The notes under the pieces were generated by a model that ran no database searches, was not told where the DNA came from, and was given only the letters and a program-made list of their open reading frames with translations. A stretch of 64,000 nt of DNA from Diploscapter coronatus (taxonomy: Eukaryota; Nematoda; Chromadorea; Rhabditida; Rhabditidae), in NCBI GenBank assembly GCA_964036155.1, contig OZ038423.1, forward strand, positions 46,391,249 to 46,455,248, in the 5' to 3' direction. A program made the translations under genes and the position numbers. Positions 44,479-48,737 of the stretch are shown piece by piece (position 1 is the stretch's first letter; every line of letters begins with the position of its first letter).

Positions 44479-46311
44479 TCAGATATGAGGTGAAGTGTTG
44501 ATGATCTGCCATGCGTCGTTGCCGATCACGTAGATGTTCGTGGGCCGAGCGAATCCGTTGAACGTGGTCGAAGCAGCGCAGGTGTACGCGCCCATCGCCT
44601 CGTACAGCATCCACTCGCCCACTTCCATGTGTCGCATGCTCTTTTTGTCCTCGATCATGTCCAGACTGTCGCAGGTCGGGCCCCAGATCGTTGTGGGGAA
44701 CACTTCAGCGGAAGTATCGAAGAGCGGTCTTCCAACTGAAAACGTATTCAACTATAACAGTCGATCTAGCCTCAATGCAATTTTAAATTTCGAGTTTAAA
44801 AATAGCTGAAATATTCGTTTAGTTTTATACCTGGATGAACATGGTCGAAGAGAATGCAGTTGAACGACCCATAGACTCCATCATTGAGAAAGTACATGAA
44901 CCCAGGCTTGTCCTCATCGCCCGAATTCTTCGTGATTTTCGATGCAGGCACTTCGGTGGAGTGAATCACGTTGGCCACGAGGGAGAAGGGCAGTGCGGCG
45001 AAGAATCTGCCAGGTTCGGCAATCCAGCGAATGCTTTCGTTGTTCGAGAACAGATCTTCGAGAGACTGGCGAATTATCGAGGCGATCTAAAGATAGAAAC
45101 TTACGAAATTTTACCCAATCTCTCCATAGGTTTGCCGAGAATTTTGTGGCTTCATGTCATTTGCCTACCTCCTCGAAGGAAGGTCTGTGCTCGTCGCCCG
45201 GGAAGCCGCCTCCCATGTCGATGATGTGCATGTTGAAGCCCAGCTCGATGCCCATTTCATACAGCCTCTTGCAGTGCTCCAGAGCCACTCTGTAGGCGGT
45301 TGGGTCGTTGCAGCTAGAGCCCACGTGGAAGCTGCAAGAAAACGCTGATCTTCACGGATTTCTGCTGAAACGTGCTACCTAATTCCGACCACATTCACGC
45401 CCATATCTCTAGCGATGGTAAGGAGCTTCGGAGCAGCTTTGACCGGCTCGCATCCGAATTTCAGATTCAAGGGACAAGTCGCAGTTGGATCGGACACAGC
45501 GATACGAAGGATCATTCTATAAGTTTAAACTTTCCAACTTTAAAATTTGAATTTTTCATACTCGGAGTTCGGATGAATGGTCATGATCTTCTTCAGCTCT
45601 TCTGCATTGTCGAAGGTCATCATTTTGACCTGAACCTGCTATTTAGGATCTCTTTTTAAGATGAGTTTGTATACATTCTGATCTTTAGCGTGAGAGATGA
45701 AGGATCGAGTTTTGCATGGATTTGCGTAGATGACTCTTTCTGCAATGAAAACCATAGTCATTTAGGCTTGAGCTAACTAGTTTATGATGCTATACCTGGC
45801 TGAACGCCCATGTTCATCACAATGTCAATCTCCTCTGCGCTGGCGCAGTCAAAACCGACATCCAAAGCAGCCAGAGTTCTTACGAGCACAGGATCAGTGT
45901 TACATTTCACCGCATAGAATGGCTGAAATTGTAAAACTCTAAAGTTTTCATAATTTTTGCAACTACCTCGACCATGGGCAATTCCTTCTTCCACAGCTCG
46001 TATCTGTCCAGCACCGTATTCAGATTGATTAGCATGAACGCTCCGTCATCTTGCTATAATGTTTGAGGTTACTTAAATAACAACTTAAATCAGGCAACCT
46101 CCTTGTCCTTGTTCTTGACAATCTCCTCGATTAGATCAAGCGAGTGAGGAGCGTCAGGCAGCACGCCTACCTATAAGACAGATACCTGTTGATGTAATGG
46201 GGATACTGTAGGTGAGGGGACGGAGGGGGCTTTGCAGCCAAAGTGAGCGGGGCTTATGAGTTCAGAAAAGCGTGCCTTGTTGTTGCCGATGAGTTCCATT
46301 TGGCTGATCAT
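44479..46311 (-). CDS. odc-1: Ornithine decarboxylase (422 aa)
   Basis: Ten exons: 46276-46311, 46099-46170, 45967-46053, 45796-45922, 45675-45739, 45562-45629, 45379-45516, 45169-45331, 44831-45086, 44479-44735; 423 codons in phase. A PLP enzyme making putrescine, the first step of polyamine synthesis. Key residues: PLP Lys71 in PFYAVKCN, His200 in SFHVGSSC, the glycine loop in [17 protein letters not shown], and the active-site Cys359 in WGPTCDSLD at the dimer interface. The C-terminus ends soon after the barrel ([13 protein letters not shown]), so there is no long PEST tail like the mammalian one. Intron 1 (46171-46275) needs a GC-AG border. The coding start is only 2 nt after the stop of a conserved-looking AUG-less upstream frame (see 46314-46519). 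Confidence 0.95.
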
Positions 46312-46313
46312 CT

Positions 46314-46519
46314 CTAGAAGGGAGGTCCTTGGTCCCAGGGCGGAGCAGACGAGCAGATGGAGGCCTTGTAGAGGAAGGAGAAGTATTCGAAGTAGGTCTC
46401 GATGTAACGAGACTCTTCGAACACCTGTAAATAGTATCGATTGGACGACTGTAGCCTACAGTATGTCTGCTTACTGTTTGGGTTTTAGCGGATGCCGCTA
46501 GCCCCGTTGGCTCGACAAT
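46314..46519 (-). promoter_or_regulatory. AUG-less upstream coding region (uCC-like) of the ODC mRNA
   Basis: A spliced open frame directly upstream of ODC: exon part 46475-46519, a 50-bp intron 46425-46474 (GTAAG...TTTACAG), then exon 46314-46424 ending in TAG. From an in-frame ATT at 46519-46517 it is 51 codons; an in-frame ACG lies at 46507-46505. No in-frame ATG occurs back to the previous stop. The peptide ends YFSFLYKASICSSAPPWDQG then PPF, and the Pro-Pro-Trp codons are at 46343-46335. Codon use looks coding-like. Known biology: antizyme inhibitor and some ODC mRNAs carry a non-AUG-initiated upstream region whose Pro-Pro-Trp stalls ribosomes at high polyamine. I infer the same feedback here. 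The TAG also forms part of a possible splice acceptor (TTCTAG) 2 nt before the ODC ATG, which could give a leader lacking this region. Confidence 0.8.
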
Positions 46520-48737
46520 GTGAGTGATTTTCTGGCGAAGTGAGTGACTGTCCGACTAGAAGGAAACGCGCTAGCAAGTCGACAGCAGCACTTGCTAGAG
46601 CGATAGCCTAGAATTACAATAATCAGATGTTTCAATTTTAGACTACGGCCGATTAACTTATTGGATAGAAAATAAACGATGCACATGTGCATATATGCAA
46701 GAAGGTTTATATATATATATATAAGACAGCGGGCCAAATGATCAGTGACATCATTAGGACTAAGAATAAAGAGTGCATAAATCAGAAGTACAAAAAGGGA
46801 AAATGATCAAGAAGGTGGAAAGGGGATACGGTAGGTCTTCTTCTTCTGAGAAAGGAAGGAGAATCACGAGAGAGAAGTTTGGCAAAGGAATGACAAAAAG
46901 GGAAGGGGGAAGGGGGCGGGGTAATGGAATTGTGCTGAGAGAAGAGGGAAAGATTCCCAACACAGATAAAGCCGAAATGACGAATGCGCTCTAGCAAATG
47001 GAAGAACGGAAAATAGAACATCCATCTGAGATTGGGCTGGAATAATTGGAACGAGAAAGGACCACTGCATCAAGGGATACAGGATAGAGAGGACAAGTGG
47101 CCAGAAATGGGATAAGATGAGAAGGAAAGAAAAGAAGGGAAGAGACTAGTGACGCTGAGAGACCGAAGCTTATCGCGTCAGGGAAGTTTAGATCGATAAA
47201 CTACCGGAAATAGCATTTTCCGTCGATATTATCACTGAGAAATGAAAACTGTTACGACTGATGAAATATAAATTGTCTAGCGTAGAGCGCGTATGAACAA
47301 GCCAACACATATAGAAGGAGAGGGGCCGAATGGGGGCGGAGACTGATGACTCTGTCCGTATGTCTATGCGTCTCTCACCCACCAAGTACATCTGCACCCA
47401 CAACAATGGCGAGGACGCGCTATCCCCCTCTAGTTCTAAGCCCCGCCTCCTCGCATATCTGTGTCAGAGATCATAGATATAGAGATGCAGAGATGCAGAA
47501 AGTCGGCACATGTGACTCCGCCTATTTTGGTCGCATGGAAAGAGGCCAAATTTGGGCAACGAGGAGAAGGAGAAAAAGCAAAATGCAGTTGTTGTGAAAT
47601 TTAATAGAAAAACTACTGAGTCAGATGAAAGTTAGAGCGAATTCGTCTTTGAGCGGTCAAATCATATATAAACAAAAAGTGTCGATATTCTGCTCTCATT
47701 CAAGAGAGAAACCGTCTCTATTTCATTGTTTTATTCAACGCCCCCGCGCAGCTGCTCTCAAAACGCGTCTTTCGTTGTTTCTAATGAAAATTTCAACGAA
47801 AATCGTACGATTTCGAAAATTTCCTCAAACACATATGAAAAGATCTCCGAATTCGAAAAGGAGGAAAGAAAACGAAAAGTGTTCACATTACGGCCAGGCA
47901 CAACAAAATGCTATGAGTGAGTGCGTTGTGTAATACTAAGAGAGGAAAGGCGAAAAGATGCAGAGAAAAAGAATGAGAATGGAATACTCTGTCATTGAAT
48001 AATGGCTAAAATAGCGGATGGGACAGGGGACGGGGCATATTGACGTTTCGGACTTTAACCTATAGTTAGTCTGATCTCACCATAAATTTTATGTGAATTT
48101 TATATGAACCAACATAAAATTGGAAATAAGGTGATTTTGAAATAAAAGCTCCATCTCGAAGAGTACAAAGGCCCTTTCGCCCCATGAAGACAGTCATTTT
48201 ATCAATTATCATTCCACTTTCAATGATATGATAGAAATTACGAACAAAGCAAACTGCCTTCTATCAATGAAATACTTTAAAACTCATTGACAGATTTGAC
48301 AGAGTTTGTGGTTGGTCTTTGATCTTTAATACCGACTTACGTAATCTGACCGAATTCGGTCTGAAAATCGATCAGCATCAGCAAGTTTGTTGCCATTCAC
48401 ATGCTATTGAAGGAATCACGTCATTTAGTTTAACACACAGAGAAAAATTCCAGTTTCATAACTCTCAACTACAAATTACAGCATTTTACTTCCTTTTCGG
48501 GTTTCTTCACTTAACGATGCTATCCCACGCTTCTGAATTTGCTGAACCTGAATCTGAGAATGAAGGTAATAAACATCTCAGACAGGCTGTGAGGCTTATC
48601 CTTCTCACTTCAGTTGCAGTCCGTCAGATATCCTCTGCCTTTGCATGCAGCCTTTCTTCTAATCATTATCTTCTATGATAAATCGTCCGCTATAAAAGGC
48701 TCGGCTTCTGTCTCTAATCACTTCTAAGCCAATCAAT
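46520..48737. other. Gene-poor intergenic region
   Basis: The 5' region of ODC, then about 2 kb without a supported exon. 46710-46723 is a short (TA)n run. 46780-47140 is strongly purine-rich on the plus strand, keeping several pyrimidine-strand frames open by chance. No RNA gene is seen. Confidence 0.45.

Follow-up and report, generated by a model that had tools for sequence, protein, structure and literature searches.

Upstream frames with an unusual start codon were reportedly described by Ivanov in 2008 on other ODC homologues, from yeast to mammals, and the frame considered here would likewise combine an unusual start with an ODC homologue. The AMD1 uORF of mammals is very short, AUG-started and without a Pro-Pro-Trp (PPW) motif. 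Polyamine-dependent pausing on a gene of polyamine synthesis, as excerpts of PMC8162569 have it for AMD1, may be common to both, on the worm side by analogy. By the same kind of analogy the worm frame may resemble the yeast HOL1 uORF, which in the excerpted text of PMC11550727 combines a polyamine and eIF5A sensitive stall with leaky scanning on a polyamine gene, and which is unlike the worm frame in its PS-stop motif and in preceding a transporter gene. The closest described system is the uCC of vertebrate AZIN1 (Ivanov 2008 and 2018, as cited in later papers). Its PPW is the pause site (excerpts of PMC9082881, PMC11058473 and PMC11550727), its last 10 codons are required for the response in mouse (PMC4458265, in excerpt) and its AUU lies ~30 codons 5' of the stall (PMC9082881).

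The locus in Diploscapter coronatus resembles the AZIN1 uCC in that an AUG-less frame of ~50 codons precedes an ODC-family gene within the predicted leader, has PPW close to its end and offers near-cognate start candidates which include AUU. In contrast to AZIN1 the gene that follows is an ODC with active-site motifs and not an antizyme inhibitor; features of the worm to be set beside the vertebrate arrangement are a stop that leaves just 2 nt to the main AUG, and a 50-bp intron. With a probability of about 0.7 an upstream coding region that lacks AUG is translated from the ODC mRNA of this worm and acts like the AZIN1 uCC.

The upstream frame, its ODC gene and a candidate polyamine circuit

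Features of the window (the whole 64-kb stretch of DNA analysed) and of the two large contigs are collected in Table 1. The preliminary description had claimed a 51-codon minus-strand frame split by a 50-bp intron, with no in-frame ATG, with PPW near its end and with a stop 2 nt 5' of the ODC ATG, and all of this is confirmed in the sequence. The peptide of 51 aa reads IVEPTGLAASAKTQT up to the intron position and VFEESRYIETYFEYFSFLYKASICSSAPPWDQGPPF after it. PPW stands six codons 5' of the stop and so within the last 10 codons, with 26 nt from the opening base of its Trp codon to the start of the ODC AUG.

Table 1. Coordinates of the upstream frame, the ODC gene and related features; positions are those of the window unless a contig (C1 or C2) is named
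Feature	Position	Strand	Remarks
Conserved block	46227-46615	minus	1 variant in 389 bp between haplotypes
Predicted first leader exon of ODC mRNA	46607-46475	minus	46607 acceptor, G+C step, conserved block from 46615
Upstream frame, first part from ATT	46519-46475	minus	15 codons
ATT of upstream frame	46519-46517	minus	
Intron of upstream frame	46474-46425	minus	50 bp, GT-AG, GTAAGC...TTTACAG
Upstream frame, second part	46424-46314	minus	36 codons + TAG
Stable hairpin opening exon 2	46424-46383	minus	42 nt, -21.1 kcal/mol
Pro-Pro-Trp codons CCG CCC TGG	46343-46335	minus	codons 43-45 counted from ATT, then DQGPPF + stop
TAG stop of upstream frame	46316-46314	minus	then AG (2-nt gap); acceptor-like TTCTAG here
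ODC ATG	46311-46309	minus	
Ornithine decarboxylase (ODC) gene	46311-44479	minus	422-aa model, first intron uncertain
Diverged ODC paralogue	C1:43769753-43772218 (match C1:43770821); C2 near 41045179		on both large contigs
Candidate antizyme gene	C2:11586633-11587342 and other haplotype		frame ending TTT-TGA-T in both

The PFYAVKCN and WGPTCD motifs of the downstream gene match human ODC in alignment, and human ODC is its best solved relative (E 3.4e-119, antizyme inhibitor 1 following at E 1.8e-80), and judged by its sequence the gene is an apparently active ODC, its active-site motifs intact and its resemblance to ODC greater than that to antizyme inhibitor. In the best-fitting model its first intron (46275-46171) lacks an ordinary donor: AAG is followed by GCACGC...TTATAG, a GC-AG intron of 105 bp; the GT-AG alternative is only 36 bp.

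Diploscapter is parthenogenetic, belongs to clade V of the nematodes and has a single chromosome pair, with assembly sizes of 157.7 and 170.5 Mb (PMC9071541, in excerpt), and the present assembly amounts to 169.7 Mb in three contigs of 87.7 Mb, 82.0 Mb and ~13.4 kb. The exon 2 peptide has two genomic matches at E up to 10, one per large contig, with ODC exons at the same two places. The two large contigs (C1 and C2) are taken to be diverged homologous copies in a diploid assembly, both of them carrying the upstream frame.

Other parts of the known polyamine circuit seem present in the same genome, and it is the gene of the enzyme that carries the PPW frame. A diverged ODC paralogue has YALRCN where ODC has YAVKCN and, aligned by eye, GPSLE where ODC has GPTCD, replacements which make it probably catalytically dead and antizyme-inhibitor-like; its Pfam ODC domains reach 32.9 bits (cut-off 23.4) and 21.8 bits (cut-off 23). 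Contiguous PPW codons, a search which an intron-split PPW would escape, are absent from the paralogue's strand in the 9.5 and 9.8 kb around it. At E 0.001 the antizyme search gave nothing; with E up to 10 it gave three places, one of them above the cut-off, and its controls gave a signal in 0 of 14 genomes. This candidate ODC_AZ exon (PF02100, 37.2 bits against a cut-off of 24.2) lies downstream of the frame ending TTT-TGA-T, the join of the two being putative.

The predicted leader, its splice sites and candidate start codons

An acceptor matrix built from nine other acceptors of the ODC gene, which as training sites score 7.5-11.6 and four of which end in TAG, was used to rank the 282 AGs in 5.1 kb. 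The 46424 acceptor (TACTATTTACAG) scores 9.02 and comes fifth, all four above it being training sites. The 46607 acceptor (TTGTAATTCTAG) comes 16th with a score of 6.33, and at 46607 the G+C steps from 0.32 (46800-46608) to 0.54 (46607-46556), the ODC introns having 0.20-0.47. A leader exon from 46607, trans- or cis-spliced there, is likely as the simplest predicted model, and the resulting spliced leader (46607-46475 plus 46424-46312, 246 nt) is ATG-free in every frame.

Trans-splicing is likely available, since the 22-mer used as query, which we take to be SL1, has 269 exact copies in the genome (134 forward and 135 reverse). Among the matches listed, many of the copies lie in divergent pairs ~250-350 bp apart. 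SL1 trans-splicing directly before the ATG is the usual nematode layout. At the uORF stop a TTCTAG had been proposed as a possible alternative acceptor; it is present (46313), pyrimidine-rich and 2 nt before the ODC ATG. Were SL1 joined at the end of CCTCCCTTCTAG, onto the AG right before the ODC ATG, the region upstream would be an outron, the mature mRNA would be without the frame and the TAG would be an acceptor only, as four of the nine ODC acceptors and the supply of SL1 copies would allow. However TTCTAG scores just 2.18, to be held against the scores of the nine training sites and of the 46424 and 46607 acceptors, the region has an exon-like G+C of 0.54, its exon 2 is coding-like and the block around it is the most conserved (see below), all of which makes an outron unlikely.

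The frame was said to be open from ATT 46519, and so it is, but the openness already begins at 46555, directly after an in-frame TAG (46558-46556) which closes it upstream; ATT is therefore one candidate start among near-cognates. An acceptor-like site also lies at 46555 (GTTTCCTTCTAG followed by TCGG, score 3.69), and with the frame open from there a uORF might begin at a standard AUG if an exon as yet unseen lay further upstream and were spliced to 46555, and would then be a PPW brake without a near-cognate start. This is very improbable given that 46607 outscores 46555 and that an exon from 46607 contains the in-frame TAG. With the leader ATG-free and the frame closed upstream by that TAG, initiation would be at a near-cognate, of which there are at least four in frame, namely ATC 46528, ATT 46519, ACG 46507 and GTG 46424, with A, C, C and (once spliced) A respectively at −3. 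The Trp codon of PPW is preceded by 44 codons counted from ATT and by 29 counted from GTG. By analogy with AZIN1 an AUU start is plausible.

With the 50-bp intron kept, the ATT frame continues beyond the ODC ATG to 46262, and since it overruns that ATG a retained intron would block ODC. Going by the sequence, retention is possible as a switch on ODC.

Chance, codon choice, conservation and RNA folds

Chance expectation was taken from the 194-nt spliced leader that starts at 46555, shuffled 20,000 times with its dinucleotides kept. At least 50 open codons in a frame occurred in 14,923 and absence of ATG in 9,348 of these shuffles, and both being so common neither carries any weight. PPW in any frame appeared in 176; a frame of at least 50 open codons whose last 12 residues include PPW came up 12 times, or 7 times when absence of ATG is added. 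Codon choice in upstream exon 2 is ODC-like (z 3.19, with 3 of 20,000 composition-weighted synonymous recodings as high), the 15 codons of upstream exon 1 give no codon-choice signal (z −0.36) and the frame as a whole has z 2.49.

Between window and other haplotype there are 2,242 mismatches in 41,919 aligned bases (5.3%), among which no run with one variant or none is longer than 46227-46615, the next non-overlapping one being 209 bp. No variants fall in 46607-46556 (0/52) or 46555-46475 (0/81) and one falls in exon 2 with its AG (1/113), and the 50-bp uORF intron has 0/50 changes versus 39/436 in eight other ODC introns. The first ODC exon has 0/36 and the nine ODC coding exons together 22/1,233, with values for comparison of 10/185 for 46800-46616 and 3/105 for the first ODC intron, the first 49 bases of which are the same in both haplotypes. 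If bases changed at the ODC coding rate, no more than one change in 389 would have P 0.007, and with the overall rate P falls to 1.2e-8, for a stretch picked after the fact. The only change in the upstream frame is nonsynonymous (Tyr22His, in exon 2), and at 0/36 synonymous and 1/117 nonsynonymous sites dN/dS is uninformative for the frame; for ODC the values are 19/275 and 3/991.

Peptide constraint alone cannot explain the block, because the uORF intron is as identical as the exons. From the comparison the block would be constrained or recently converted, and the haplotypes by themselves leave constraint on the peptide unproven. Gene conversion can leave short identical tracts, and if it had equalised the haplotypes here, exons and intron would be equally identical, as they are, and the conservation would be uninformative on function. 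That the 5' edge of the block (46615) falls only 8 bp from the 46607 acceptor speaks against so accidental an origin, and PPW position and codon choice are independent of the haplotypes, such that conversion as the whole explanation is highly unlikely.

The leader may also be kept for an RNA-level reason, be it the hairpin that opens exon 2, control of splicing or a retained 50-bp intron, with the PPW frame then incidental. Such a reason would account for an intron as identical as the exons and would fit the blocking of ODC when the intron is kept. The hairpin has z −5.42 with none of 200 shuffles as stable (whole exon 2 has z −4.02), and over the two strands of the 64 kb its stability is reached in 69 of 127,918 windows of 42 nt, or 11 strand-specific places including its own; the sole haplotype variant of the upstream frame sits in its loop. 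Synonymous recodings with ODC codon usage reach that stability in 1 of 3,000 cases, but permutations of the hairpin's own synonymous codons do so in 185 of 3,000, and so it is partly a by-product of the codons used. This, together with PPW position and exon 2 codon choice, makes a purely RNA-level reason quite unlikely. Other leader folds are unremarkable (z −1.21 for 46475-46607, −1.34 for 46475-46555 and 0.93 for 46270-46350). A second inverted repeat, CTAGCAAGT...ACTTGCTAG at 46600-46567, lies just inside the presumed 5' exon, and the fold of 46610-46565 has −17.9 kcal/mol with z only −1.64.

Weak starts are favoured by stem-loops that lie 14-16 nt downstream (PMC9082881) and a ribosome footprint is ~30 nt (PMC11058473), both as given in excerpts of these papers. 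Counted from the A of ATT, the stem of the hairpin starts 45 nt downstream, one such footprint beyond that spacing. That the hairpin acts on ATT by way of another scanning complex, queued behind the first, is speculative.

Relatives of the frame were sought in several ways. In the protein collection the 51-aa peptide had no candidate sharing three words, and a fusion of peptide and ODC, scored on residues 1-51 and aimed at gene models which join the two, gave three candidates and none at E up to 10; both negatives are weak, because protein predictions rarely include a frame that has no AUG. Neither Pfam with the peptide nor Rfam with 46000-48000 (E up to 1) gave a match. In literature text the string APPWD led to two unrelated papers, and no nematode ODC uORF is named among the literature matches listed. 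Others have catalogued 37 conserved uORFs of a nematode (PMC7530721, in excerpt).

A model for control of ODC and its meaning

Overall the uCC-like reading is favoured by the rarity in shuffles of PPW so near the end of an open frame, taken with the codon choice of exon 2, by a block which is the most conserved of all aligned bases and more so than the ODC coding exons, by a strong 46424 acceptor which joins the two parts in frame within an ATG-free leader, and by the position of the frame immediately 5' of an ODC that has its active-site motifs. It is favoured too by a PPW within the last 10 codons, the part required for the response in mouse AZIN1, and by a candidate antizyme and a probably dead paralogue in the genome. 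It is weakened by the lack of a relative in the protein collection, by an exon 1 with no codon signal, by an intron as identical as the exons and a sole frame change that is nonsynonymous, by openness and ATG absence being common in shuffles, and by a C at −3 of the AUU, where the AUC at 46528 has A, and 44 codons to the Trp, where AZIN1 has ~30. Of the uCC-like control put forward in the preliminary description, a constrained, coding-like PPW frame before ODC is upheld by haplotypes, exon 2 codons and motif position, and the AUU, the pause, the polyamine response and the queueing stand by analogy only.

In the model proposed, for which we infer transcript structure and start codon, and for which translation, pausing, polyamine dependence and queueing are borrowed from AZIN1 (PMC9082881, PMC11058473, PMC11550727 and PMC4458265), most scanning complexes would skip the near-cognate start and reach the ODC AUG, and ribosomes which do translate the upstream frame would arrive at PPW and then at GPPF-stop. 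High polyamine would hamper eIF5A, leading to a pause at PPW and perhaps at GPPF-stop too, and the paused ribosome would obstruct the path to the ODC AUG. A queue behind the pause would raise initiation at the near-cognate start, and ODC would be repressed. By this analogy the worm probably restrains polyamine synthesis at translation, much as vertebrates do for a related gene.

A more elaborate version is offered tentatively and is on balance doubtful. Here the PPW uORF would control ODC itself and leave the dead paralogue free of it, and the leader would have two brakes, the PPW stall and a stable hairpin so placed that, with one scanning complex stopped at it, the next one waiting a footprint upstream would have the AUU in its P site; the acceptor at the uORF stop would provide an opt-out and retention of the 50-bp intron a lock. 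Features worth testing are the position of the uORF on ODC, the gap of 2 nt to the ATG, the intron and the hairpin.

If the uCC-like reading is true, the nematode would provide a small genetic system for PPW and eIF5A based polyamine sensing that acts on the enzyme instead of the antizyme inhibitor, and the queueing model could be tested with separable parts, namely the near-cognate start, the intron, the hairpin and PPW. It would also bear on where PPW control sat before vertebrates put it on AZIN1.
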